64,000 nucleotides of DNA from Vanrija pseudolonga (Eukaryota; Basidiomycota; Tremellomycetes; Trichosporonales; Trichosporonaceae), in the NCBI RefSeq assembly GCF_020906515.1, contig NC_085849.1:2418001-2482000 (forward strand), in the 5' to 3' direction. The position numbers were made by a program, and so were the translations under genes. Below are positions 25,176 through 54,788 of the stretch, one piece after another. The first letter of the stretch is position 1; each line of letters opens with the position of its first letter. Below the pieces are notes generated by a model that searched no databases, was not told the origin of the DNA, and saw only the letters and a list, made by a program, of their open reading frames with translations.

Positions 25176-28100
25176 TTAGAAGGAGAAGATGCCTGCTCCG
25201 CGCCTTCTGGAGCCGCCAAAGGGATGAGTAACGACTGGAACGGGTTAGCAGACATTCCATCAAGGGTTGAACCCATGTGCTTACCAGCTGCGACGAACAG
25301 GCCGACACTGCAGAGGCGTCAGCAGGCGCTCGATAGCAACCCCAAATCACTCACGTTAGACCAATAGCAACCGATACGAGCTGCTGGGCGACGCCAAAGC
25401 CAGTGCTGTACTGCTCTGCCGAGTTATTCTTCGACGCGTCGGCGACAAACGAGAAGATGCCGCCCTGCGAGAGACCCGAGGGTAGCTGGAAGAGGATGCC
25501 CGTGACCATGACGTGGAAGCTTGCACCCTTGGAGAAGAACCGGCCGTACATGTTGCCCAGGAGGCCGACGACGAACGAGCCGAGGGCCGAGACAATGTCC
25601 GAGCGGCCTTGGAACGCCTGCGGGAGCGATGCAAAGTGGTTGGTCACCCAGCCGGCTACACTGATGAGGACCATGATCGGGAGCTCCTTTGCAAAGATGG
25701 GCTGCTGGTTTCTCAGGGACAGGAGGCAGGAGTAGGCAGGTACGCAGAGGTAGTCTGGAAGGTCAGCATGGCCATGGTTGTACACGCCACATACACCAAT
25801 ATCCACTCGGCTTGCTCATGTACCACGGGGAGCCCGCATAGTGCGTGTTACTACACGTGTAGTCGTCTGCGTTGAGCACGCCGACTTTTCTTATCTTGAA
25901 GTAGACCTCTGCGCCGATCGAGATGCCAAAGCCAAGGAAGAGCGAGTAGATGACCGAGTAGCCTATTCTCACTGCGCCTGCAGTGATGTTGCGTGACGCG
26001 AGCTCGAGCGCGCCAGTGAGGACAATGTACCCTGGCAGGATGAGGACCACGCCGCCCGACACGAGGGCCGTGTAGCAAAAGTAGTGGGTGGACGCGAGCA
26101 CGGCGGCGACGAACGAGATCAGCGTGGCGACCGTGATCTCGAACACATTATTGAGCATGTCGTTGCGCGCGGCGACGATCTGCACAGACACGAGAAACGC
26201 GCCGAGGACGAAACACATGAGCGCGTCGATGAACGAGCCGTAGAAGGACGGGATGGAGATGAACACGGAACACAGGCCGCCGATCAGGATCGTCTGCCAC
26301 GTGTTGTAGATTGGCGGCGTGGTCATGAGGGTGTCGAGCTCGCGCGACGCGTCCTCGACCGACACGCGGTCGTGCACGACGTCCCAGTAGATGTTGTGCG
26401 TGGCCAGCAGCTTGCCGAGGTCGAGCCCCGTGACCTGCTTCAAGAATTTCGTTTCCGACGTGTGCGTCGCGTCGTCGCCGAAGGACACGAGCATCGTGTT
26501 CGGCAGGTACACCACCTGCGCGTTGATCTCGAGCACCTTTGCGGTCGCTTGGATCTGGGTTTCGAGCCGGTGCGATGGCGACCCGAACATCATGAGCGCG
26601 CGCGCGAGCTTGAGGATGAACTGCTGCCGCGCGATCACTGCGGCAACGTGCTGGATGATGAATATCTCCTGCTTCTTCTTCTTCTCCTTCTCCTTCTTGC
26701 GCCGCTTCTTCTCGGCCTCCCACTCGCGCCGGCGTTGCTCGTCACGCCGACGCTCGTCATCGACCTCGAAGTAACTCGAGCCGTTCTTCTCGTCTGGCGT
26801 GGTGCGTGCCGAGCGGATCCCGAGGCCGGGCAGTCGCTCAAATGACTTGAGGTGGAGTGGGGTGGGGCGCTTGGGCTTGCGCTTCATGGTGAGGACGTTG
26901 TCGAACGACTTGTTCCGCGGGAGAGACTCGGGCTCGAGCGTCTCGGTCATGCCCTCGACCACCGTCGAGACAGAGTACGTGCTGTCTGGCCGCTGCTGCG
27001 GGTCCGGCGAGGGGTGGGGCAACGACCCCGATGCTGATCGTGGTGACTCGGACGCGGACTTCTCCCCCAGAGTGTACCGGTTCAGATGGTACCCGTGCTT
27101 CTTGGCGGCCGGCATCAGCGTCGCGGACGACGGGACGGCCGCAGCGCCTATAGCACCCGAGGACTGCACGAGCGCGCCGAAGACGCCGGCGCCAGACCGC
27201 GCCGTCTTGGGCCGGTCCGTGTCCCTCCACGCGCCGACGGCCTTCTGGAAGGACCCCAGCAGACCAGGGCTCGGCTCGTTATAGTCTCGGTCCGCGATGC
27301 TCGTCTCCGACTTGGAGCGCTTGTGCTCCCCAAAGCTGGGGGACGCGGGGCTCGAGTCCTGCGATAGCCGGCTCCGGCGCTTCCACGGCAAGCTGCTGTT
27401 CTTCTTCGCCGGGCCATGCTGCTGCTCGCTGTCGTCCTCGATCGAGCCGGCGGTCGACGGCGGCCGCGAGCTCGCAGGCGTCGAGTGCCCAGACTGCATC
27501 TGTTGCTGGTTGTACAGCGCCAGCAGGGACGATAGCACCGACGTGCCCCCCGCAATCGGGGGCATGCCGCCCGGTGGGCCATTCAGCGGCGGGTTGATGG
27601 GCGGGTTGACCCGCGGAGGGGCGCCGTCGCCATGCAACGGCGTCTGCGAGTCGGTGCTGATGCGACGCTCGTGGTGGTCGGCAGCCTTACGTGACTGTGT
27701 ATCCCTTCTCCTTATCGTGCCACCGGCCTTGGTACCACGGCGGCGCAACAGACCCCACTTGTTGGTATGAGATCGCACCAGGTCGGCCGCCTGCCGCATC
27801 TCCTCGGCCGGGGCATCCGGCGCGGACGGCAGCCCATCCGTCTCTCCAGGCGGGACATACGACGTGACCTGGTCGCTGACGCCGCTGTCGAGGATCCTCT
27901 CCTCGGTCCTCTCGTCGTCGTCCGAGGGAGGCATCGGCGCGTCGTCAAGGCGGTAGTCGTAGTCTTCCCCGTCCTCGCCGGCGCCGCCGATCGACGAGCC
28001 CATGCTCGCGAGACTGATCCCGCTGAGCCCGGTCGGCGCGGTGCGGTGGCTCGCGAAGCGCTCGAGCGCAATGTTCACGCTGGACAGGTTGTCGGCGCTC

Positions 28101-28378
28101 ACCCCGCTCTGCTCGGACGTGTGCGTCGCCACCGGCGCGAGGTTGACCACATGGTCGGCAGTCCACTGCACCCTGCGCGGCGTGCGCGTGCCCGACGACG
28201 CCGGGAGGCTCAGGCTCGGGCCGCCGCCGCCGGGGACAGCGTCTCCCTGTGTTGGGTCGCCGAGATCGACGTGCGCAAACTCGGACAGCCGCACGTCAGA
28301 GTGCACGCGCAGGATCGGCGTGCCAGGCGCCGTGCGCCGAGTATCCGGCGGCTCGTGGAACGGGTCGTCTGGCACCAT
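25176..28378 (-). CDS. Prm10/ThrE-family multi-spanning membrane protein
   Basis: Four exons (28378-25795, 25754-25355, 25307-25285, 25234-25176) give 1021 residues. The long N-terminus (about 1-560) is disordered and Ser/Pro/Arg-rich. A basic Lys/Glu helix (KKRRKKEKEKKKK) then leads into the ThrE domain: HVAAVIARQQFILKLARALMMFGSPSHRLE, NTMLVSFGDDATHTSETKF and about ten hydrophobic helices (IGGLCSVFISIPSFYGSFIDAL, VATLISFVAAVLAS and others, each cut here by loops). The tail GGSRRRGAGIFSF, reached only by splicing the 23-base third exon, is a hallmark of Prm10-like fungal proteins. In yeast the homologue is pheromone-regulated; bacterial relatives export threonine. The transported substrate here is unknown. 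The gene lies immediately upstream of the secreted-peptide cluster, transcribed away from it. Confidence 0.9.
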
Positions 28379-29613: not shown

Positions 29614-29796
29614 ATGAAGCCCGCCGTCATCCTCCTCCTCGTCGCCACCGCGCTCGCCATGCCCATCCCCAAGCCTGACGCCGATGCCGTCGCCGTCGCC
29701 GGCCCCCAGACGGGCTGGTGGCACCAGAACGACGGCCCTCTGCCCCTCTGGAAGAAGATCGCCGCCGCTGAGGCCGAAGCCGAGCCTGAGAAGTAA
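29614..29796 (+). CDS. Secreted peptide precursor 1, single Trp-ended core
   Basis: 60 residues, single exon. A short Lys and a hydrophobic stretch (MKPAVILLLVATALA) form a signal peptide with an ALA cleavage motif at about residue 15. A short pro-segment made of Pro/Ala/Asp dipeptides (DADAVAVAGP) follows. The only core is about TGWWHQNDGPLPLW (33-46), ending in Trp immediately before Lys47-Lys48, a likely Kex2-type cut. The tail is AEAEAEPEK. I choose the ATG at 29614 because it alone gives a clean signal peptide and follows a cac-rich leader. It shares architecture and the G-P-x-x-x-W-dibasic end with the four genes downstream. Function unknown; a secreted signalling peptide is my inference. 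Confidence 0.7.
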   Translation: MKPAVILLLVATALAMPIPKPDADAVAVAGPQTGWWHQNDGPLPLWKKIAAAEAEAEPEK

Positions 29797-31187
29797 CATG
29801 TAGGAGGCGGTGCAAGGTTGGCTGGCTCATGCACACCCAGGTACCATGCCTCTCTCGGCCGCCGTGAAATCGGGAGAAGGTGTCGTGGGCAGTCAGGCCC
29901 GCCGCGGGCTGATTTAGGCCGTAGTCATGGCGTATGGAAGAGTTGGGTGGTCTGCGGAGCGAATGTGGCAGAGTGCATGTGGCGTTGACGGCTTACCGAC
30001 ACTGGGCAAGTCGAGAGGGCCATGGTCGAAGACGATACATTCGCTTTAAGGTTAAATCTCCCGGTACGACGAATACTAGGGCTCTTATCCCCGCATACGA
30101 GTTGACCGGCACGGACAAGTGTGGCACTGAGAACCAGAACACTGCCCCACAAAGGAACCACGCGAGCACTCGGCGACGAAACTTGCCGCAACCTTCGTCT
30201 TTGGACCGCAGGACCTGATGACTCGGAGAGTATTCTTCGTCCCTTGGGACGGTCGGAGACACGAGCTCGGTCGACCGTTCCCCCCTTGTAACTGATGACT
30301 CGGGGAGTAGTAATGGTACCTTGAGCATGTCCGAGAGCCTCACTAACTCTGCCTACAGCGTCCACCACGCCTCGTCTCCTCATCGTGGAGAAGAACGCAC
30401 TCCTATCAACCATGCATCCACCTACCCAGGACCACAGCTGGTAGACCGAACCTTCTCGTGGCACTCGTCCGCTCCCCCACCCATACCCCATTAAAACCCC
30501 CTGCCACGTTATCCTCCGAGCCCACCTCGGTGTACCTCTGGGTACCTCGAGTCGTCTGAACCGCAGGTACAGAACAGCGGATTCTCACAGAGGGGGCATT
30601 GCTCTTTTGCCATAGTAAGCGTGAACGTGACCTGGCAAACTTACGAATTATGCCGCGATTTTCCTGCGTCACGAGGAATCCGTGGCAGGACATATGCCAC
30701 TAAACGCCTTAAGGTTGGCCTACGACTCTCTACGCCGGACCTCGCGCCTTTGTTCAAAAGGCAAAGGCCCCTCGTCGCCCCTCCTCGGGCCGGCCGGCGG
30801 CGGTGCCCACTCTGCCCATCGGCATATGCCACGGAGCACAGTTATACCTCATGGCTCCGAGCCAGCCGGCGGGCACGCACAAACACCTCGGTCAGGACCC
30901 CTTCTGCCGGCACCCGCACCTTCCAAGAGCCGCGGCTACTCCACTCCGACCCTCTACGTCTCGACATGGCACCGTCTTCTCCGCGCTCTGTACCTCTCCA
31001 GCACGCAGGGGTAGGGTACCTCTCGGCCTCACACCCGCTCCGTGAGAGTCGCTTGCTTGCCCCACTGTGTGCGGCTGTGATAGGTATGTAAACCACCCGA
31101 CGAATCGCCCCAGCCCCGTCTTTCCCATCAACCACCCACCACCTGCCACATCCCCGCGACTCCACCTTTCACCAAATACTCGCAACC
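29797..31187. other. Intergenic region within the peptide cluster
   Basis: 1.4 kb with no convincing gene; the longest frames (about 156-188 codons) lack family features. It contains a short direct repeat (30215-30232 and 30292-30309). TGTAAA at 31086-31091 lies about 100 bases before the next ATG. Confidence 0.5.
30215..30309. repeat. Pair of 18-base near-identical direct repeats
   Basis: CTGATGACTCGGAGAGTA at 30215-30232 recurs as CTGATGACTCGGGGAGTA at 30292-30309, one mismatch, 77 bases apart. Both lie between the first and second peptide genes. They could be regulatory sites or the remains of a local duplication; nothing else about them is known. Confidence 0.6.
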
Positions 31188-31442
31188 ATGAATGCCACTC
31201 TTCTCCTCCTCGCCGCAATTGCTGCCACCGCCATTGCCGCCCCCGCCGCTAAACCTGAAGCCGACGCTGACGCTGGAAGGTGGGGTAACGAGGGAAACGC
31301 CGATTGGAAGCGCGATGCCGACGCCGGGAGGTGGGGCAACGAGGGTCCCGCCGATTGGAAGCGCGATGCCGACGCCGACGCCGCAGGGTGGGGGAATGTC
31401 AAGGGCCCTGCCCACTGGAAGCGCGACGACGTTACATCCTAA
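31188..31442 (+). CDS. Secreted peptide precursor 2, three Trp-ended repeats
   Basis: 84 residues, single exon. Signal peptide MNATLLLLAAIAATAIAA with an AIAA cleavage region at about 18. Then KPEADADA and three units: GRWGNEGNADW (30-40), GRWGNEGPADW (47-57) and AGWGNVKGPAHW (66-77), each followed by KR and a DADA-type spacer, with a short DDVTS tail. The arrangement (signal, X-Ala/X-Asp dipeptides, core, Lys-Arg) is the plan of yeast alpha-factor precursors and KEX2-processed repeat proteins. The third core has drifted from the first two but keeps Gly-Trp-Gly, a Gly-Pro and the terminal Trp. Intronless, unlike most neighbours. Receptor and role unknown. Confidence 0.78.
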   Translation: MNATLLLLAAIAATAIAAPAAKPEADADAGRWGNEGNADWKRDADAGRWGNEGPADWKRDADADAAGWGNVKGPAHWKRDDVTS

Positions 31443-32591
31443 GGCGTAGTGTTGGATGTCGAACTGTGGCTAACATCACAGCAGCTGAAGCACTCGATGG
31501 AAGTGTTCTCCGTAGAAGTGTCAACTCCGCTCAAGTACATGCACAGGGTACTCATACTCCTGTGTTTAGCCTGTCTTTAGCAGATGAATTATTGCCTCCA
31601 GCTTACACGCTCCTTCTGCATTTGCCTCGGCTCCTGGCGTGTCGCGTCGCATCGGAAACAGTTGTTCTCGTTAACTATCTATCGCCACACTTGTTTCCCG
31701 ACGGAACTTGCGCCACGGTTGGAGCGATCAACGACCATCTATCGCCCACTTTGCCATCCGTAATCAAGTCTGGTCAAGGTTTAATATCAACCCGCCCCCT
31801 CCTTCTTGCTCACTGGTCTTCATCCTACCCGCAGTCCAAGCTCCGATTCCTCCTTGTCTCGGCGCCCAGATCTCCTGCCACAGGCACGCAGGGCTGCGCC
31901 TGCCTGGCAACCAGTGACATACGCTCCAACCTGTGGCTCATGTTGCTGTCGTGGCTGTCGTGGCTCGCGTTAAAGCCCTGCAAGCACGGCCCAGAACGCT
32001 TGGGCGATCCTGGCGTTTCAGGCGCGTCTGGACGGAGTTAAGGACAGCTGGGGAGCCAGGAATCACTTCCAGGTCGGCGCGGGGGCTCCAGTGACGGCAT
32101 ATTGCTAGGCGTGCCGTCATCAGCCAGTCAATGTCCGCCCGGCCCAAGGCATCCGGCTGCCGAGCCAGCTGGAGCACTTCACGTCCACAGCAGACGAACC
32201 CAGGACGATGCGGAAACCGAAGACAGGGCAGATTGATAGGAGGAACCCAGGTACTCCAGCCGCTTCTCCGTCCATGGCACACACGCGCACACACTCTTCG
32301 CTTATCCGTGGCACCTGGGGGGGCCAGCTGACCTTGGGGCTAGGCATCCGTCCGGACTCTCGTCATCAACCCTCGTCCTCGCGGCACCATCTGCTGAGAA
32401 CCCCTTGTGTGCCGGCTCCCAGGCGCATCGGATGACCCACGTCGCGGCACATTCGGCACACTTGCACCACCCTCGCGACTGCCGCCTGCGTTTCGTCCGA
32501 TTTTCAATGTGGGGCGACGCGTACTTAAACCCGTCGGGCCAAGTCCAACTCCACTCCCCCTTCTCCCACCAACCTCTCAGCAACCACAACC
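31443..32591. other. Intergenic region within the peptide cluster
   Basis: 1.15 kb, no gene recognised. The open frame continuing past precursor 2 in another phase (to 32041) is composed of out-of-frame repeat and unremarkable sequence. ACTTAAAC at 32523-32530 is a TATA-like element about 65 bases before the next ATG. Confidence 0.5.
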
Positions 32592-33032
32592 ATGAAGGTC
32601 TCCCTTGCCCTCCTCTTCGCCCTCTCGGCTTCGGCCATCGCCGCCCCCGTGGCCGCTCCCGACGCTGCCCCTGTCGCCGCCCCCGAGGCCGACAACGCGG
32701 CGCGCTTCATTGGCTGGGGCGCCATCTCCGGACCCCCCAAGTGGAAGAAGGACGCTGAGGCCGTCGAGGCCCGCGCCCCCGAGGCCGACAAGGAGACCCG
32801 CGACGCCGATGCCTTCATTGGTTGGGGTGCCATCTCTGGCCCCCCCAAGTGGAAGCGCTTCATCGGCTGGGGCGCCATCTCTGGTCCCCCCAAGTGGAAG
32901 AAGGATGCTGACGCCTTCATTGGTTGGGGCGCCATCTCTGGTCCTCCCAAGTGGAAGCGTTTCATCGGCTGGGGCGCCATCTCGGGTCCCCCCAAGTGGA
33001 AGAAGGACGCTGAGGCCAGCGAGGAGCAGTAA
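32592..33032 (+). CDS. Secreted peptide precursor 3, five identical 13-residue cores
   Basis: 146 residues, single exon. Signal peptide MKVSLALLFALSASAIAA, an Ala/Pro-rich pro-segment, then five copies of FIGWGAISGPPKW at 39-51, 75-87, 90-102, 109-121 and 124-136. Each is followed by KK or KR, alternating; copies 2-3 and 4-5 are joined directly by KR, the others by DA/EA dipeptide spacers. The five DNA copies differ only at third positions (att/atc, ggc/ggt, tcc/tct/tcg, gga/ggc/ggt, ccc/cct), so the peptide is held constant while the DNA drifts. The core starts with an aromatic/aliphatic pair and ends in Pro-Pro-Lys-Trp. A splice-donor-like cgtaagt lies just after the stop, so a 3' UTR intron is possible. 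Confidence 0.85.
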   Translation: MKVSLALLFALSASAIAAPVAAPDAAPVAAPEADNAARFIGWGAISGPPKWKKDAEAVEARAPEADKETRDADAFIGWGAISGPPKWKRFIGWGAISGPPKWKKDADAFIGWGAISGPPKWKRFIGWGAISGPPKWKKDAEASEEQ

Positions 33033-33876
33033 CGTAAGTCGCGTCAATGAAACCGTCCTCACACGCACAGGACCGGACCCTACCTTTCAAAAATCTTTCA
33101 TGCCCACTCTCGTTTGAGCCGTTCGCTGGTAGACACGGCCAACTCGTAGTGGATGTAACGAGAATGACATGTGTAGACCAAATGGTGTGGCACTGACACT
33201 AACGAGTCAGTGGCGCTACCTCGCACTAGGTCAGGAGGATTAAGCTCGAGATGGTGCCTCGGGTCCACGTTACCCATGTATCGGCTCCTCAACCCTCAGG
33301 TGCATACCACATTGTCGTCGGTATGCATCCCACTCATGCACTTACCCTGCTAGGACAACCCGCGTGGTCGACTCTGGAATGTCGCAGCGAGTAGCCGACG
33401 GCACTCCGCAGAGCGCTCAAGCGACACAATCAGGCGCGTGCCCAATCGACGCGACACGTCACACTAAAGAAATCAGTTCGATTCAAATCACCTCGCACAC
33501 TTTGAGCATCATTTCCCCCTTCACCAACCGCAGCCCCTCACACGCAATGGTCCCCACGTCGTCGATGTTATCGCGATGGCCGCCGTGTTCACGTGGATAG
33601 TACGTGGATCGATGCGTACAAAGCCCAGTCCCGCAACGAACTCGGAGCTCCGAAGCGTTGACTGACCCCGACTCCGACCCAGTAGGAGGTTTAAGCTCGA
33701 GACCGGTGCCTCACACCGAACCTACCTTTGTCTCGGCCCTACCAACCACACTATTCTGGGTCGATGCGTTCCTTTGTCCTCGCCATGCCCTGCAGCGAAC
33801 AAGGCATGAACCTCGCCCGTCACAGAGCATAAGAACCGCAGCTCAGCGACCCACTGATTCCACTCACCCACAAACC
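33033..33876. other. Intergenic region within the peptide cluster
   Basis: Contains a 28-base element at 33233-33260 repeated in near-identical form at 33684-33712, and the upstream region of precursor 4, with CATAAG at 33828-33833 about 49 bases before its ATG. No gene seen. Confidence 0.5.
33233..33712. repeat. Pair of ~28-base direct repeats containing TTAAGCTCGAGA
   Basis: Copies at 33233-33260 and 33684-33712 share AGGAGG(A/T)TTAAGCTCGAGA and then GGTGCCTC, differing by one substitution and a small change of two or three bases. They lie 451 bases apart between precursors 3 and 4. They may mark a local duplication or a shared control element. Confidence 0.65.
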
Positions 33877-34218
33877 ATGAAGGTCGCACTCGCGCTCATC
33901 GCGGCTCTGGCGGCCACCGTGCTCGCCACGCCCGTCCCCGCCCCGAAGGCCGAAGCCGCAGCCGAAGCCCAAGGCTGGGGCGGAGGTACCGGCGGCCCTC
34001 CCGTCGGGTGGGGCCCGCCCGGCTGGAAGCGCGACGCCGACGCGCAGACCTGGGGCGGGGGTACTGGCGGTGGTCCTGGAGGTGGTTGGGGTCCGCCCGG
34101 CTGGAAGAAGCGCAGTGCCGACGCTCAAGGCTGGGGCGGTGGTACCGGCGGTGGTCCTGGTAGTGGCTGGGGCCCGCCCGGTTGGAAGAAGCGGGATGCT
34201 GCCGCTGAGCAGGAGTAA
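33877..34218 (+). CDS. Secreted peptide precursor 4, three Gly/Trp-rich cores
   Basis: 113 residues as an uninterrupted frame. Signal peptide MKVALALIAALAATVLATP, pro-segment with PAPKAEAAAEA, then QGWGGGTGGPPVGWGPPGW (32-50), QTWGGGTGGGPGGGWGPPGW (57-76) and QGWGGGTGGGPGSGWGPPGW (84-103). They are followed by KR, KKR and KKR and by DADA or SADA spacers. All cores begin with Gln, which could cyclise to pyroglutamate after trimming, and end Gly-Pro-Pro-Gly-Trp. The internal glycine-rich half is longer than in the sister genes. The stop overlaps a good donor (GA then gtaagta at 34214), so a short extra 3' exon cannot be excluded. Confidence 0.8.
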   Translation: MKVALALIAALAATVLATPVPAPKAEAAAEAQGWGGGTGGPPVGWGPPGWKRDADAQTWGGGTGGGPGGGWGPPGWKKRSADAQGWGGGTGGGPGSGWGPPGWKKRDAAAEQE

Positions 34219-35327
34219 GTACGCGGCTCGCTGGGTCTGTCTTATGAGCTAGGTAAAGGCGGCATCGGTGTAGCACGTTGGAGGTCTGGTACCCCAGTCC
34301 AAGAGCAGGAGGTGTGGGGTTTGAGAAGTTCGTCCCGTAGCCGATGAATGGTATAGGATATATGTCGGGAGCAGGCCCCCTCTGCCCACTACCAGTGGCG
34401 CCGCTCATCACTCAGCACGATTGGTTGCACTGAACCGAACGTAGGGATTCGTTCAGGACGACAGAGAGTTACCTCAGTTCGGTACAGGTACGGAATGTAC
34501 CGGGGTGACTGAATAGAGTGGCACATCTAAGTGTGGCGTTACCCCAGCTGACGACCTGTGGAAGGGCAATAACTGCACGGGATCCGGGACCGGCCCGGCT
34601 CGGAGCCTCCGGGGCTCATTACCAGTGCTCAAGGCTGTGTGTGGTGGTTGAGGGGGGGGGGGGGGTACTCCCAGCGGGACTGGCAGGTGGGGGCCACCTG
34701 AACGGAAGGGCGACTCTACCTTCAGGCAGCGAGCGAGTGTCACTGGGGCGTGTGTGCCCGTCTCGGGAGCTTATTGCGAGCGGTGTCAGTGTGCGAGGTA
34801 TGGCGAGGTGGTGGTCTGGACCCCCAGTAGATGCTGGGTTGCCATGATTGTCCCGTAGCTTACGAACAGACGAGCTTGAGCTTATCATTGGGAACGGGAC
34901 CTGGTCTTCAACCGGGGCTCGTCCGTCGCCAGGCGTGAGCGAGTCACAGCAGTGCAACGACCCGTGTCAGCGGTCTTCGCCGCCGTCGAGCTACGAGTCA
35001 GCAAGCATAGGCCTCACTCCGTCTACGCAGTGACAGCCCCGCGTACCCTTCGATGGCCGCATTCTGCATCCGAGCCCGGAGCACAATAAGCTCGTCCCGA
35101 CGACGATCCGGGGCGGTTGTGGCACATTTGACGGCACATGTGGCAATCCACATGACGGGGATGTGGGCCGTGCGGGATGGCAACCACATCGCATTATCTC
35201 GTGGGCAGTGCAGTGCACGCATGTTGTATGCTTCCGGTACCATACACTGGGCGAGACGGCATGAGGTACATAACCCCCGTGTCAGGAGTCCGTCCATCTA
35301 AACCCCGACACCCACCCAACTCACACC
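34219..35327. other. Intergenic region within the peptide cluster
   Basis: 1.1 kb without a recognised gene. Two related blocks occur: GGTCTGGTACCCCAGT at 34283-34298 with GTCCCGTAGC at 34332, and GGTCTGGACCCCCAGT at 34813-34828 with GTCCCGTAGC at 34850. A G run lies near 34654-34665. TACATAACC near 35268-35276 is a TATA-like element about 60 bases before precursor 5. Confidence 0.5.
34283..34859. repeat. Diverged direct duplication of a ~55-base block
   Basis: GGTCTGG(T/A)(A/C)CCCCAGT followed 37-49 bases later by GTCCCGTAGC occurs at 34283-34341 and again at 34813-34859. The spacers differ. This pattern suggests an old local duplication in the interval between precursors 4 and 5; it was found by eye and may extend further. 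Confidence 0.45.
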
Positions 35328-35681
35328 ATGAAGACAGCCGCAGTCCTCCTCTTCGCGCTTTTCGCCACGACCCTCGCGGCCCCCGTTGCCGTCGCGGAAG
35401 CAGACGCCGACGTCAACGAGCGGACCTTCGGCATGGGTGCACCCCGCTGGAAGCGTGACGCGGATGTCGTCGACCGCACGTTCGGCAAGGGTGCCCCCCA
35501 CTGGCGACGCGACGCCGAACCCAGCCCGGACGCCAAGGTCGACGAGGGCACCTTCGGCAAGGGCGCACCTCACTGGCGGCGCGACGCCGAAGCCGACATC
35601 GAGGTCGACGCGCGCACCTTCGGCAAGGGTGCGCCCCATTGGAAGCGCGACCCCGACAACGACACCCATCAAGATGCCTAG
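35328..35681 (+). CDS. Secreted peptide precursor 5, four TFGxGAPxW cores
   Basis: 117 residues, single exon. Signal peptide MKTAAVLLFALFATTLAA, Ala/Asp-rich pro-segment, then TFGMGAPRW (33-41) and three copies of TFGKGAPHW (51-59, 75-83, 97-105). They are followed by KR, RR, RR and KR; three copies are preceded by a single Arg and one by Gly. Spacers are longer than in the sister genes and contain EADIEVDA-like acidic dipeptides. The nine-residue core (Thr-Phe-Gly at the start, Trp at the end) recalls the Cryptococcus quorum-sensing-like peptide Qsp1, NFGAPGGAYPW as I remember it. That similarity is suggestive and short. Last member of the cluster; the next gene is the convergent lipase. Confidence 0.8.
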   Translation: MKTAAVLLFALFATTLAAPVAVAEADADVNERTFGMGAPRWKRDADVVDRTFGKGAPHWRRDAEPSPDAKVDEGTFGKGAPHWRRDAEADIEVDARTFGKGAPHWKRDPDNDTHQDA

Positions 35682-35981: not shown

Positions 35982-37348
35982 CTACTTGCCCTCGCACGTG
36001 AGCTTCACGCCCCAGAAAGGGCCGCTATGGCTGGACAGGTTAGCGTCCATGACACATACTCAACTCACTACTCGGTGGTAAGCTTCGTCTGGCCCTGGGA
36101 GCACTGGGGGTTCTCCCTCCCGGGACAGTCGACGTACTCGCCGGCCGGGGTGATCCAGGTCTCGCCCCGCGGGTGGATGGCGTCTACTTTGCCGCCGCCG
36201 CCGCCAGCGACGGTGGACGGGAGTTCGAGTTGCTTGAGCTCGTGCGGCACGCTGTCCGACGAGTGGATCACGTAGCGGAAGCGATTGGCCTCGATCGTCT
36301 TCTCGACGTAGTCGGCCCACTTGGCCGTGCCGGTGCGCGGGGGGGTTGAACCCCCGCACAGTGACGGTCGCCTTGCCGTTGTAGCGGCTTGTCAGTCGTG
36401 GCCCGAGGATCTCGGCGGCTGCCGCGCCCTGCGAGTGGCCGACGAGGATGATGTGCTGGATGGAGCCATCGTTGACCCCAGTTGTTAGGAAGTCCTTGGT
36501 GCGGTCGTCGATCCCGTTCGCGACGTTGTAGAAGCCCCCGCGCACGCGCACGTCCGGGGGAGCCCCAGGGTCGTGCTGTTGGTCCAGCTCGCGCGCCGCA
36601 CCTTGTCCGTTGAAGAGGTTGCCCAAAGGCACAGTACCCTCCATGGCAAGGATGGCGTGCTTGTGGTCCTCATTGACCACAACATAGTCTGCCCCAGTCA
36701 GCTTGACCTAGACGAGATCGCGGCCGCTACGCACGCTTCGGGAGCCATCCGTCACCACCGTGCATCAGGACTCGGTGTTTGCCACGTTTGTTGAGGTCCT
36801 GGCACAGCGTGCACGTCCACGGCTTGACCTGATCGCCTTCGCACTTTGAAATGCTGCGGCTTAGTGCACGTAGAATGGCTCCCCAACACTCACGCGGAGT
36901 ACTTGGCGTACACCTCCCAGTCCCAGTTCTGCATGGGCTGGAGCTCGGGACCGGGGAGGTTCTTGCCATTGCCGCCCTTGCCAAAGCCGGTGCTGCCACC
37001 GCCACCACTGCCGCCGCCGGAGCCGGTGCCACTCCCACCGGGCACGGGTCGCAATGACCCCGAACCGCCAGGGGCTGGTTGCGGCGCCGGGACCGGGGCC
37101 GGGGCCGGCTGCGGGGCTGGCTCGGGGTTGGGTTGAGCAACTCCGACCCCCCCGGCACCCTTGCCAATGCCCTCCAGGCTAGGAGGTGCGCTGACCTTGG
37201 GGATCGTGCCGGCTGCCTTACCCGGTCCGTCGGGGATGCATTTTTGCTCGGGGCCCGGAACGCAGGGTTTGGCGGGGGCGGGGGCTGGTGCTGGTGCGGC
37301 GTGCGCGAGGAGCGCGAGGAGGCTTACTGCGAGTTGGAGGGTGAGCAT
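35982..37348 (-). CDS. Secreted class 3 lipase with an apparent one-base frameshift
   Basis: Exons 37348-36894, 36853-36735, 36688-36069 and 36024-35982. The product has a signal peptide (MLTLQLAVSLLALLAHA), a Pro/Ala then Gly-rich linker to about residue 135, and an alpha/beta-hydrolase domain: WDWEVYAKYSAISKC, VLMHGGDG, a conserved AMEGT strand, ILVGHSQGAAAAE with the nucleophile Ser, and FNPP. After FNPP the reading frame changes: translation matches the family again (RTGTAKWADYVEKT, then HSSDSVPHEL with a late Asp and His) only if the seven-base run at 36339-36345 is six. The exon phases confirm this, since exon 3 is one base too long to join the last exon (YGPFWGVKLTCEGK). Sequencing error or a recent inactivation are both possible. 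The enzyme would hydrolyse lipid esters outside the cell. Confidence 0.82.
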
Positions 37349-42166: not shown

Positions 42167-43087
42167 CTACACCGCCTCGTCGCTAACGAACAGCACGTCG
42201 CTGCGGAGCGTGTACTTGATGCCCTCCTTGACCGGCTCGCCCGAGTGGTACAGCATGTCGTGCTGGAAGAGCAGCACGCGCCCACACCTGGGGTAGACGT
42301 CTACGCGGCGGTCGGACCCACGGCGGTCGAGGAAGGCCGTCGAGCCGCCGCGCAGCGTCGCGCCGGCGGCGCTCGCCTCTGCCGTGCTGTCAAACGCCTC
42401 GACCGCGTCGTTGAGGTACAGCTGGATCGTGTAGAACGTGAGGTACGCCTTGCCGTCCTTCTCGTAGTAGTACGGCCCGTCGCAGTGGGGCTTGAAGAAC
42501 TGGCCTGGCCCGTAGCGCAGGTATCGTCCGCGCTCGTTGACCCGGTTGAACGTGTAGGCCGTGTTGCCCTCTTTCGCGGTCATTAACCGCTCGCGCACCT
42601 CCGGGATCGTCGCCATGCGCGCCCACAGCCGGTCCATGACCGTCTGGTTGTCCCAGACGATGCGGTCAGAGTTGCGGTAGTCGGTCATGAGGACCTCTAG
42701 GCCTGGTCCGGCGTTGACGAGCGCCGGGCGCCAGGCGCTGCTGTCGCCATGCTTGCCGGTCACGCTTTCTTCCGCGTAGGCGATGAGCGCCGCGCACTCG
42801 GACGGTGAGAGCACGCCGTCGAGCACAGCGGCGTAGTATGGCCCGTTCTCGCGCAGCGTCGTGTCGGCCCACCGGATCGGCGCGTAGGTTATGGGTGTTG
42901 CGTCGTCAGGCTGTGCGACGAGAAAGTCGTCGGGAAGCGCGACCTCGCGCGACGTGTAGGATGTGGCGTGGAGCTGGCCCTCGCGAGGGGACGAGGACGA
43001 CATTGGTGTGTCGCGGCGCACGGAGGACAAGGTGGGCAGGCGGGGTGGCGAGATGATGTACCAGACGAACGACTTGGCGAGTTCCAT
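42167..43087 (-). CDS. 2-oxoglutarate/Fe(II) dioxygenase, prolyl 4-hydroxylase-like
   Basis: 306 residues from the first ATG, single exon. The C-terminal half is a P4H-type double-stranded beta-helix: iron ligands His201 and Asp203 in FKPHCDGPYY, distal His281 in LYHSGEPV, and Lys291 as the likely 2-oxoglutarate ligand. GQFF and the TFYTIQLYLN strand also fit. The family hydroxylates proline or related residues in proteins; the substrate here is unknown. A TATATAA box lies only 24 bases upstream of this ATG, so the transcript may begin after it and translation may start at Met29 (43003, MSSSSPREGQ), which leaves the domain intact. The first 28 residues include a moderately hydrophobic stretch (FVWYIISPP). 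Confidence 0.85.
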   Translation of the reverse strand: MELAKSFVWYIISPPRLPTLSSVRRDTPMSSSSPREGQLHATSYTSREVALPDDFLVAQPDDATPITYAPIRWADTTLRENGPYYAAVLDGVLSPSECAALIAYAEESVTGKHGDSSAWRPALVNAGPGLEVLMTDYRNSDRIVWDNQTVMDRLWARMATIPEVRERLMTAKEGNTAYTFNRVNERGRYLRYGPGQFFKPHCDGPYYYEKDGKAYLTFYTIQLYLNDAVEAFDSTAEASAAGATLRGGSTAFLDRRGSDRRVDVYPRCGRVLLFQHDMLYHSGEPVKEGIKYTLRSDVLFVSDEAV

Positions 43088-43772
43088 TGGGCCGTAAATG
43101 TTGTGGTTGGTTATATACGCGTGCGATGGGTGGCGAGTAGCGGGGACAGAGACCGCTCGCCCTGCTTGCTGCTATAAGGGATAGAAAGAGGGTGCACCGC
43201 TCGCCGTCGGGGTATATGTGCGACTGACTCGATCAACGAACGACACGGCGGCGGGGCGATGCCGGGTGGCGAACAACAACATAGGCGGTGTGGTGTGGCG
43301 TGGCCCACCTCCACTTCCACGTAGAAGCAGGCAGGCAGGCGCCACGACAAAGTTTACACCCATAGCCCTCCACGATGACTTGCTCGGTGAAGCTCGGTGA
43401 AGCCCAGTACGAGGAGACTCGGTGCCGAGACGTCACAGGTCGCCGACACCCCGACGCTCGACTCGTTGCGGTCGGTGCCACTCTGCCTCGCTTCAACTGT
43501 ACAGTGACGGCGGCGACGGCCTCCGCTGACCTGCGGGCTACTGCACCACCACCGCCACTACCTCATCCATACACCCCACAACCATTCACTTGCACTTCAG
43601 CTGTGACACCGCAGCGGCAATCACCACAGATTCAAGACACGCCAGATTCTGCTTGGTCAATTGTTCACCCCATCTCCTGTCTCAACCTCGCGGCGTACAC
43701 TTTCTATACGCCGCTCGGCACACTGCCATGAGTATGAAGCCATCCATCACGCTACAAATGTCACAACGCCCT
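43088..43772. other. Intergenic region, oxygenase promoter and eS17 3' flank
   Basis: Both neighbours are on the minus strand. The TATA box at 43111-43117 is the only clear element. No gene seen. Confidence 0.5.
43111..43117 (-). promoter_or_regulatory. TATA box of the oxygenase gene
   Basis: TATATAA on the minus strand, 24 bases before the first ATG of the oxygenase frame and 108 before the second. The spacing favours the second Met as the translation start. Confidence 0.55.
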
Positions 43773-48629: not shown

Positions 48630-50109
48630 CGTTGTCGGAGTTGTTGGTGGTGGTGTAGGTGCTACTCTCTGCCCCTCTTCTGTGGTGGTCTTGTGGTCCG
48701 ACTGGGAGTGCCTCGTCTGAAATTGTTCAGAATGGAGGCAGCGGGATCAAAATTCTGACGTATGGAGCCAGCAGCTCTTACGTATGCAGGAACCACGTGG
48801 GACCAGATATCCCCGAGTGCATGGACCGCAGTGGGCGGTGTGGCAGTGGAGGTGCCAGCCAGATGGGGAGGTCATTCACCGTAAAAGGCCTTCACCTCTT
48901 GCCTATGCTACATCGCATGCATCAAAGCCACCCCGACGCAGAGGGGCAAGACTTATAGACGAGCCACGCCGACACGAGACCACCTTCATGATGATCACTC
49001 CGCACCGACAGCCGGGTGTATCGGGGCGTCTGTCGGTGCTGACGGAGACGCCGTGGCCGCGTACCGACGACTTACACATGTTTTGACGCCCCGGTGCAGT
49101 GTGGTGTTGAGTGATGACGAACCTCGCTCCCTCGACGACTGCGGGCGGACACACACACGTCCCAATCACCGCGCACGACGGTGCAATAGTAATCATCTTA
49201 TATCCCTCGCTGTCGATCCAGGGAAGGCCGACGCCATGAACTGCACTTCCCTACCATGTCCGTCCAGCCAGCCAGTGGGGAGTAGGCGAAGTTGCCGAGC
49301 GGCGGGAGGTCCGCTCGTCTGTCGGCGACGGCGATGGTCGGGGCTCGTTATGTATCTCGTTAACCGCGGTCAGAGCGAGTCGTGAGCCAGCATGCAAAGA
49401 GAGAGAGAGCCGCCGAGCTTCATGACAAGCGCTGAGAGCAGCTTTTCGGCGGTATCCGGCGTAATAAAGGCTGAACAGAATATGCGCGGGGTGGTCAGGG
49501 GTAGTGTGTCTGTGGTTGCTAATGGCAGCCTCAATGTTATTAATACCTAGTCCTAATCGAGTCAAGTTGACATAACCCACGTCTTATTCGCCCTCAGATC
49601 GTCGGGTCTATTTCGTGTCATGGTCCGGGTCTAACATGTCATTGTGGTTATGAAACGGCCCGATCTTATTGGCTCGACGGGTAACATTCAACCCACTTTT
49701 GCCGATGACGCGTTGGAGGAGAGAGAGAGGAGTGACTGAGATGGTGCTGGCAGCTGGCAGGCTCAAGCGGTTAGCTAGACGCAGCACGCACCAGCCAGGC
49801 CTTTGGCCTCTTTGGGGGGCGACAACCTTCTATTAAACGCGGCACGTCTCCACTTGCACCACTTGACAACCACTCTCCACTCAATCCAACCCAAAGAACA
49901 GACAAGGTGAGTATACATGCCTTCCGTAGTACCCGTCGCGTCGCCGTAGACACCAGCACACGTAGTGACGCACGTCATACACCTTGCTGCGCTACAGTGT
50001 GCCCCTCTGGAGCGCTATCAGTCCCCCCCCTGCCTGCACGCCCCCGCCTCGCCCCGCCCCTCCAGCCCCGCCCACCCATCCACGCCCAGACTAACAACCC
50101 CTCCCAGCC
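48630..50109. other. Divergent promoter region with a 5' UTR intron
   Basis: 1.5 kb between Cbf5 and cytochrome c peroxidase. The right end holds a probable 5' UTR intron of the peroxidase gene (49907-50107). The AT-richer part around 49480-49700 has no gene. No other structure seen. Confidence 0.5.
49907..50107 (+). other. Probable 5' UTR intron of the peroxidase gene
   Basis: The sequence caag then gtgagtatac at 49907 is a strong donor, and actaacaacccctcccag ending at 50107, two bases before the ATG, has a perfect branch site and acceptor. No coding potential is lost by its removal. Confidence 0.65.
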
Positions 50110-51301
50110 ATGTCGTTCCGCATCACCCCCGTCCTCCGCAACGTCGCGACCCGTCGTGTCATCGTCGCCGGCCGCGCCGCCCCTCTCCTCCGCCGCGGCT
50201 ACGCCGAGGAGGCTGTAAGTGTCTCAGCTCGCTATCTCCCAAGGAACGTGCTAACGCCCGCTCCCAGGCGCCCCCTCCCCCTCCTCCCCCCAAGAAGGAG
50301 GGCGGTGGCAGCGGCCTCTTCCTCGCCCTCGGTGCCGCCGCCGCTGCCGGTGCCGCGTACTACTTCTACACCCAGGACTCTGCCAAGCCCTCGGCCGCCT
50401 TTGTCCCCACCAAGGCCGACTACGAGAAGGTCTACAACGCCATCACCGACATCTTTGACAAGGAGGGCTACGATGACGGCTCGCTCGCCCCCGTCATCCT
50501 CCGTCTTGCCTGGCACGCCTCGGGCACCTACAACAAGGAGGACGGCACTGGTGGCTCCAACTACGCCACCATGCGTTTCCCCAACGAGGCTGGCCACGGC
50601 GCCAACGCCGGTCTTTCGGTCGCCCGTGACGCCCTCGAGCCTATCAAGAAGCAGTTCCCCTGGATCTCGTACGGTGACCTCTGGACCCTTGCCGGTGTCG
50701 CCGCCGTCCAGGAGACTGGTGGCCCCGCCATCCCCTGGCGCGCTGGCCGCATCGACGGTGTCGAGGCCCACCAGACCCCCGACGGCCGTCTCCCCGACGC
50801 CGCCCAGGGCTCGAGCCACATCCGCGACATCTTTGGCCGCATGGGCTTCAACGACCAGGAGATGGTCGCCCTTATCGGCGCCCACGCTCTCGGCCGCTGC
50901 CACTCTGACCGCTCGGGTTACGAGGGCCCCTGGACCTTCTCCCCCGTGACCTTCTCCAACGAGTTCTACAACCTCCTCCTCAACGACGCTTGGCAGTGGA
51001 AGAAGTGGAAGGGCCCTGCCCAGTACGAGGACAAGAAGACCAAGTCGCTCATGATGCTCCCCGCCGACATGGCCGTTGTCCAGGACAAGGAGTTCAAGAA
51101 GTGGGCCCAGACTTACGCCAAGGACGAGCAGAAGTTCTTCGACGAGTAAGTGGAGCGATAGCAGCTACATTGGATTAACACTAACACCACCCCAGCTTCT
51201 CCAAAGCCTTCTCGACCATGCTCGAGCTTGGTGTCCCCAAGGAGCAGTGGAAGTCTGAGCCCTACAAGGTTGGCCAGCCCGAGGCCGCCGCCGCCAAGTA
51301 A
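50110..51301 (+). CDS. CCP1: Mitochondrial cytochrome c peroxidase
   Basis: Three exons (50110-50214, 50268-51145, 51196-51301) give 362 residues. The enzyme reduces hydrogen peroxide using cytochrome c in the intermembrane space. It starts with an Arg-rich mitochondrial presequence ([17 protein letters not shown]), then a Pro/Gly linker and a hydrophobic segment (about 52-69, [16 protein letters not shown]), as in Ccp1 precursors that are inserted and then cut from the inner membrane. The peroxidase domain has distal Arg114, Trp117 and His118 in RLAWHASG and proximal His241 in [12 protein letters not shown]. The Asp235-equivalent lies in [10 protein letters not shown] and the Trp191-equivalent in GPWTFSP. 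A short 3' exon encodes the C-terminal helix. Confidence 0.95.
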
Positions 51302-53708: not shown

Positions 53709-54060
53709 GCGGTGTGGTAGATTGGGAGTCGCACGTGCCATAGATGTTCCATAGATAACGGCGGCGCGGCGTGACGTCGGTGGCCTGCGCACAGACGCGA
53801 CGCACGCGCACGGACTTTTTGACTGTAGATTAGTAGCAGCAGTAGAGCATAAGCATGTGTCATACAGCGTGGAGGCGAGGCGAGGCAAGGACGCGACTGC
53901 ATCGGACAACGGGTGGTCTAAGGTATGGTATACAACAGGCTGGGTGGGTGGGTTGGGGTGTGGGAAGGGGGTGCGAACACAGTCGCGGTCAGAGTCGCGA
54001 TCATCCGCGTCGGATCATCGGCGTAGCGATTGTCTCAGCGACTCGACACCGCGCATCAGA
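53709..54060. other. Intergenic region between convergent genes
   Basis: 350 bases carrying the 3' ends of two convergent genes; nothing else recognised. Confidence 0.45.
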
Positions 54061-54788
54061 CTACCTGAACGGGTCGTCTTCCGCCTTTGTCCCGCTGGAC
54101 GAGAACGAGCTGCCGCCCGTCGAGTGCGTGGGCGACGCGAAGGGGCGCGAGCTGGCGCTGCCGCGGTCCCAGCTCCGGTTCTTGGGGTGCTGCAGTGTCG
54201 GGCGCTTTGGGAGGGGCGGGGCGGTGGCGGCTGCTGACAGCGACGACGCGCGCGGCGCGTGCGTGTGGTGCGTCACGGCCTTGTTGGACGACGTGCCGCT
54301 GAAGCCGGCGGCAAAGTCGTCGTCGTGGAGGAAGGGGTTGGCGAACGGGTTGGGCGCGCGCGGCTTGCTGCTCGACGTCGCGATGTTGAACGACGAGCCG
54401 CCGTCGTACCGCTCGCTCGCCGGCGGCTCGTCTGGCCGGGCCCGGTCAAAGCGGGACTGCACGAACCGGTGGTCGCCGCGCCCTCCCGCCGGCCCGTCCC
54501 ACTCTACGTCTTCGTCTTCGTCCTCTTCGTCGTGGTCGACGAGCCGGCCGTACTCGCTGCCACTGCCTTTTGGCCCCAGCCCCGCCATCTCGACGTCGTT
54601 TGACCGCTCGGACGCGGGCGGCAGCTCGACGAGGACCGTCTTGTTGCCTGACCATTCGACCGTCAGGACATTTTGGAGCTGCGAGCGGGCGGACTGGGAC
54701 GTCAGCGGGATACAGGGGAAGGTGCGCGCGCGACGCGACTCACCTCGCTGGGGACGAGCGCGCTGAGCTTCTTCTTGAGGTTGAGCAT
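54061..54788 (-). CDS. Hypothetical protein with acidic and Ser-rich tail
   Basis: Two exons (54788-54744 and 54693-54061) give 225 residues; an alternative acceptor 15 bases further on, at 54678, is also in frame. The N-terminus MLNLKKKLSALVPSE is a basic amphipathic helix. It leads, across the intron, to LQNVLTVEWSGNKTVLVELPP, which reads as two beta strands. An acidic run (DHDEEDEDEDVEWD) and a disordered Ser/Pro/His-rich region follow, with NPFANPF repeats of the kind bound by EH domains. The protein ends EDDPFR. NPF motifs suggest an endocytic or trafficking partner, but this is inference. The family is not recognised. Confidence 0.7.

Follow-up and report, generated by a model that had tools for sequence, protein, structure and literature searches.

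A five-gene tandem array of predicted Trp-ended, Kex2-type peptide precursors in Vanrija pseudolonga

Described precursors and the layout of the array

Kex2-processed repeat proteins (KEPs) were described in 2019-2020 (PMC6339444, PMC7329392), and the published rule asks for at least three repeats of at least 8 amino acids (aa) between KR, KK, RK, or RR sites (Umemura 2020, PMC7329392). Basidiomycete KEPs with clear Ste13 signatures are known (Le Marquer et al. 2019, PMC6339444); many basidiomycete KEPs end in Trp, and some of the peptides have been detected by mass spectrometry (Vogt et al. 2022, PMC9769878). In Agaricomycetes, KEP processing yields MSGVAADW and related peptides in Pleurotus, and QYKAPSW was obtained by expression in Pichia; the products suggest single-Arg cuts (PMC9769878). 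The core of a Trichosporon oleaginosus KEP, QSWGGCGGRGTPCW, was likened to ascomycete alpha-pheromones (PMC6339444). Here we describe a tandem array of five precursor genes of the Ste13-type KEP kind, P1 to P5, in V. pseudolonga. The window is the whole analysed stretch of 64,000 nucleotides, positions 2418001-2482000 of contig C1 (NC_085849.1, 4.73 Mb), and the genome searched comprises 24.87 Mb on nine contigs. The array probably encodes alpha-factor-style linear signals with a non-mating function, a reading to which we give a probability of about 0.6.

The five genes, together with two unlinked relatives on other contigs (KC2 and KC7), are as follows.

29614-29796, + strand: P1, 60 aa, one core, predicted product QTGWWHQNDGPLPLW, Trp followed by KK
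29707-29751, + strand: P1 core, residues 32-46, from the end of the dipeptide ladder to the Trp ahead of KK
31188-31442, + strand: P2, 84 aa, three cores, GRWGNEGNADW, GRWGNEGPADW, and AGWGNVKGPAHW
32592-33032, + strand: P3, 146 aa, five identical cores FIGWGAISGPPKW
33877-34218, + strand: P4, 113 aa, three cores of 19-20 aa, e.g. QTWGGGTGGGPGGGWGPPGW
35328-35681, + strand: P5, 117 aa, four cores, one TFGMGAPRW and three TFGKGAPHW
C2:2260917-2261297, - strand: KC2, four cores, three QGQNINGWGINPPYW and one QNHNGWGTNPPYW
C7:2096408-2097511, + strand: KC7, 13 cores QGGFFGGGGSAGGAARW, Arg replaced by His in one of them

The array genes are intronless open reading frames (ORFs) on one strand, as an earlier note on this DNA had read them, and every one of them has a start codon (ATG), a hydrophobic leader, and a stop codon of its own. 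The gaps between them (844 to 1391 bp) agree with the spacing of 0.8-1.4 kb given in that note, and the W-[KR]-[KR] counts of 1, 3, 5, 3, and 4 for P1-P5 bear out its one to five Trp-ended cores per gene. Leaders and signal-peptide cuts were set by hand with the A-x-A rule, and such a cut after the hydrophobic leader is visible by eye in 5/5 proteins. The C-terminal residues of P1-P5 are PEK, VTS, EEQ, EQE, and QDA, with no C-terminal CaaX. No Pfam match above the cut-off was obtained for any of the five; five weak matches of P3 and P5 below the cut-off were taken as chance.

The array belongs to the Ste13-type KEP kind. P3 and P5 fall within the repeat rule, with four and three cores, respectively, that have a dibasic site on both sides. 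P2 and P4 have three cores each, two with dibasic sites on both sides and the first hanging on the leader. P1, with its single core, lies outside the strict rule and would work like a KEP. Like the array, with its putative signal peptides, the Agaricomycete Ste13-type KEPs have a signal peptide, dibasic cuts, X-Ala/X-Pro ladders, several N-terminal Gln residues, and a C-terminal Trp (PMC9769878), and the -ADW end is common to MSGVAADW of Pleurotus and GPADW of P2. Their cores are different, however, and an arrangement of five divergent tandem precursors is not mentioned in the relevant passages of that paper (PMC9769878). The T. oleaginosus KEP also comes from a basidiomycete yeast and has a Ste13 signature and a C-terminal Trp, and its core shares a Q-[ST]-W-G-G start with one P4 core. 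It differs by two Cys in the core, and one such protein was reported, with no array mentioned in the passages that treat it (PMC6339444).

The earlier note was right to see secreted dibasic precursors on the alpha-factor plan, with several different peptides from one locus. Its claim of a new system was too strong, because Trp-ended Ste13-type KEPs are already published in basidiomycetes (PMC9769878, PMC6339444) and the array is therefore not a new kind of system. What is new, within the literature searched, is the five-gene tandem array of divergent cores with its two unlinked relatives, and also a single-core precursor tied to its signal peptide by an eight-step ladder. Tandem arrays of different cores were not found in the portions of the KEP main texts that we searched, where duplicated KEP genes are mentioned. 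In a literature text search, five core strings of this genome had no occurrence, and the sole match was the T. oleaginosus core.

Probable selection on the cores and the proposed processing plan

Four ORFs with at least three W-[KR]-[KR] sites are present in the real window, against none in 100 dinucleotide-preserving shuffles (ORFs of at least 50 aa). The window holds 347 ORFs that start with ATG and reach at least about 40 aa. Outside the array, none of these exceeds two such sites, and in the single ORF with two (53855-54766) the contexts of the sites are unlike. A chance origin of the repeated Trp-dibasic sites is excluded. The core copies suggest that selection maintains the peptide sequences, because they differ in DNA but little in protein. 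In the five P3 copies, 6/13 codons are variable with a ratio of synonymous to changing codons of 6/0, and the four P5 copies show 4/2, both changes being in the first copy. The ratio is 9/0 in KC2 (3 of its 4 cores compared) and 12/1 in the 13 copies of KC7. Of random single changes in such cores, only 18 to 27 percent are expected to be silent (22-23% for P3 and P5).

The spacers, noted previously as dipeptides, are X-Ala/X-Pro ladders of Ste13 type in one register. After 33 dibasic cuts in the seven precursors, 88 X-Ala/X-Pro dipeptides are in phase, 2 at +1, and 0 at -1; for P1-P5 alone (16 dibasic cuts), 30 are in phase vs 2 and 0 shifted. When the signal-peptide cut is added and the final dibasic segment dropped from every precursor, the counts are 112, 1, and 6. 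The absence of Ala and Pro at core position 2 is a consequence of the rule by which the ladders were cut and is no evidence.

In P1, P2, P4, and KC7 the first core is joined directly to the assumed signal-peptide cut by a ladder without breaks, so these first cores would need only Ste13-type trimming at the N-terminus. The P1 ladder consists of eight consecutive X-Ala/X-Pro steps between the leader and the single core, and P1 would thus still be a complete precursor. The P1 end given in the earlier note needs correction: where TGWW... was proposed there, the ladder, if followed, leads to QTGWWHQNDGPLPLW, a product of 15 aa with an N-terminal Gln. The predicted products of P4 and KC7 also have an N-terminal Gln, as do those of KC2 where the ladder reaches the cores.

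We propose that each precursor would enter the endoplasmic reticulum by its secretion signal. Kex2 would cut after Trp-KR/KK/RR, a Kex1-type carboxypeptidase would remove the C-terminal basic residues, and a Ste13-type dipeptidyl aminopeptidase would trim two residues per step until residue 2 is neither Ala nor Pro. The end products would be linear peptides of 9-20 residues with a C-terminal Trp, and the many that begin with Gln may form pyroglutamate. Most predicted products have an early Trp-Gly or Phe-Gly and a Gly/Pro-rich end, e.g. GPPKW or GAPHW. The predicted [M+H]+ values are 1834.866 for QTGWWHQNDGPLPLW (1817.839 in the pyroglutamate form), 1244.544 for GRWGNEGPADW, 1279.633 for AGWGNVKGPAHW, 1415.747 for FIGWGAISGPPKW, 1825.804 for QTWGGGTGGGPGGGWGPPGW (pyroglutamate form 1808.778), 1000.500 for TFGKGAPHW, 1743.824 for QGQNINGWGINPPYW (pyroglutamate form 1726.797), and 1539.709 for QGGFFGGGGSAGGAARW (pyroglutamate form 1522.682). 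We consider this processing plan very probably correct as read.

The genome has candidate genes for the Kex2-type and Ste13-type enzymes of the plan. A Kex2-like gene on contig C3 has a Peptidase_S8 match (expectation value, E, 3e-47) plus a P domain, and its protein shows a membrane segment and an acidic tail by eye. There is one DPPIV/Ste13-like gene (DPPIV_N, E 8e-93; Peptidase_S9, E 2e-25), with an N-terminal membrane segment by eye. Dikaritin cyclisation needs a conserved core Tyr (PMC6339444). Tyr is absent from every P1-P5 core and is present in the KC2 cores. As the earlier note had said, no UstY-type enzyme stands beside the array (0 UstYa matches in the 20 window ORFs scanned), and the UstYa (DUF3328) profile had no match in the genome, though control genomes also gave none.

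Relatives in the genome and in the protein database

The whole genome was searched with the sequences of P2, P3, P4, P5, and KC2, and these searches, together with the first pattern below, brought out KC2 and KC7, which are built on the plan of the array precursors. P2 matches P5 at E 6e-8, and P5 matches the unlinked KC2 at E 8e-10. Pairwise alignment z-scores among the seven precursors range from 3.9 to 19.3, inflated by the common repeat plan and low complexity, and are weak evidence that the seven may have a common descent. The P2 matches on C6 (~20674) and C5 (~2350732) are other small secreted proteins with only the leader in common. The former region (C6:20301-21200) codes for a small secreted Cys-containing protein with a KEP-like leader and a single KREA site ahead of the mature part.

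Two patterns were searched genome-wide. A Trp-Lys-[KR]-Asp-Ala-type pattern gave 38 matches, 22 of them inside the seven precursors, and the reversed-pattern control gave 7. The open frames around the 16 outside matches hold at most two W-[KR]-[KR] sites, and the single frame with two has no secretion leader visible by eye; 7/16 of these frames are without ATG, and exons there are possible. The second pattern, of the K-[KR]-[DE]-A-[DE]-[AP] type, gave 66 matches, again 22 inside the seven precursors, and 22 of the other 44 were read. Two of the matches fall in a further KEP:

C3:1882201-1883600: KEP gene, apparently spliced, long core QGSAAQGGSSTGWNGNPNGSSAASGNSGSAGWYWSYGSAPEAGVA in two identical copies before KR sites

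Its spacers are of Ste13 type and its cores are not Trp-ended, which makes it a class distinct from the Trp-ended family. In the other 22, the second residue is not basic in 19 matches, and three (C2:161526, C4:649913, and C5:283848) encode KK or KR. The precursor repertoire given here is a lower bound.

Protein database searches used P2-P5 and KC2 as queries, and the best 8000 candidates by shared words were scored. The one named basidiomycete relative among them is the hypothetical protein ACEPAH_263 of Sanghuangporus vaninii (E 3e-10). It resembles the array in its leader, DADAEP-type spacers, and W-KR/RR sites, whereas the units between its sites are much shorter, e.g. GAPDW and GAPAW. An unnamed 64-aa protein with cores FGGGPPGW also matched (E 8e-3).

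Tremellomycetes are reported to have an average of only 1.00 KEP per strain (PMC7329392). Against this average, the V. pseudolonga genome has, if the class is right, no fewer than seven precursors with Trp-ended cores and a further one whose cores are long; P1 with its single core would escape the published count.

Signalling and its alternatives

Alpha-factor-style precursors are made and cut in mushrooms, where their function is a puzzle (PMC9769878). In our favoured reading, the array peptides would act in autocrine or paracrine signalling among cells of the fungus, outside primary mating. A Ste3-type receptor gene lies at C1:3633178-3634104, and some 5 kb away is a 43-aa ORF (MDAFTAIF...CIIA) that resembles a farnesylated pheromone, with a presumed likeness to those of Cryptococcus. 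Given this receptor and this ORF of CaaX pheromone type, the fungus could mate without the array peptides, and both genes argue against these peptides as the main mating pheromones. The region that holds the two (C1:3633178-3639491) is possibly part of a mating-type locus.

Several observations weigh against non-mating signalling by peptides processed in this way. No unbroken ladder leads to the P5 cores, to cores 1 and 2 of P3, or to the first KC2 core, and single-Arg cuts seem to be required there; the N-terminus of the P5 cores is less certain, a single Arg preceding 3/4 of them. Two P3 cores come directly after KR with no spacer. In the 400-bp upstream regions of the seven genes, exact 7- and 8-mers are shared no more than expected by chance, which gives no sign of co-regulation. 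The 43-aa pheromone-type ORF had no Pfam match at E <= 1. No homologue at E <= 1 was found for P3 among 909 candidates, or for P4 among 2438 candidates, drawn from 5.8 billion proteins. Six KEP knockouts in C. cinerea had no apparent phenotype and synthetic KEP peptides had no antibacterial activity (PMC9769878), so that signalling by KEPs as a class is still a proposal.

Among the alternatives, quorum peptides of Qsp1 type would be secreted, re-imported by an oligopeptide transporter, and active inside the cell. Qsp1 of Cryptococcus neoformans is NFGAPGGAYPW (PMC5959073). This short secreted peptide of 11 aa has an aromatic-Gly near the start, is Gly/Pro-rich, and ends in Trp, and TFGKGAPHW of P5 is similar to it. 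Qsp1 is matured extracellularly by the protease Pqp1 and requires Opt1 (PMC7537855), whereas the array has the plan of Kex2 repeat precursors, as which Qsp1 is not described in the relevant passages (PMC5959073, PMC7537855). The likeness of a 9- to an 11-residue peptide is beyond statistical testing and is no proof of kinship. The pheromone-type ORF, by its presumed likeness to those of Cryptococcus, suggests the same class, Tremellomycetes. We regard a Qsp1-type mode of action as unlikely; the likeness of TFGKGAPHW is a lead worth testing because Qsp1, also Trp-ended, works as a quorum signal.

The peptides could also be sexual pheromones that act through a Ste2-like receptor as a second mating signal of alpha-factor type. 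Alpha-factor ends in G-x-P-x-W, and the ends of the array cores resemble it. Ascomycete alpha-factor precursors share the processing plan and the aromatic C-terminus with the array, and they differ from it in their cores. The mating-factor Pfam profile had no match at E <= 1 among P1-P5, and the Ste2 profile (PF02116) gave 0 candidates in the genome, though control genomes gave none either; the same method did find Ste3. The alpha-pheromone likeness reported for the T. oleaginosus core (PMC6339444) also speaks for this view, and the Ste3 and CaaX genes speak against it. A mating role is, in our judgement, quite improbable.

A role of Ustilago Rep1 type, as surface coat or structural peptides, would fit the Gly- and aromatic-rich cores, e.g. 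QGGFFGGGGSAGGAARW of KC7; Rep1 is without a Ste13 signature (PMC6339444), whereas the ladders here are in register, and we hold this view to be very unlikely as well. Antimicrobial or cell-damaging peptides against competitors or hosts are highly improbable: diversified cores at one locus would fit an arms race, but the array cores have little charge and no Cys, the copies are conserved within genes, and mushroom KEP peptides showed no antibacterial effect when tested (PMC9769878).

A broader and rather doubtful idea is a multi-ligand code. At least seven diverged Trp-ended peptides of one ancestral alpha-factor-like family might each have their own receptor or transporter, with Qsp1 and the Trichosporon peptide as outlying members, and alpha-factor-type signalling in Tremellomycetes might have been retained as a means of sensing density or development, not for sex. 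The compact five-gene array can be removed by one deletion and the masses above are predicted exactly, which makes the question directly testable.

The neighbourhood of the array contains the following genes.

25763-28378, - strand: ThrE/PRM10-like membrane protein, flanks the array (E 5.5e-55)
36063-36707, - strand: class 3 lipase, flanks the array (E 5e-6)
42170-43171, - strand: 2OG-Fe(II) oxygenase (PF13640), 6.5 kb from the array

The oxygenase was considered as a tailoring enzyme because the cores are Pro-rich. It is without a visible secretion leader, had no match at E <= 1 against solved structures, and is probably unrelated to the array. The window also holds a heme peroxidase family protein at 49950-51146 on the + strand (PF00141, E 7e-45).

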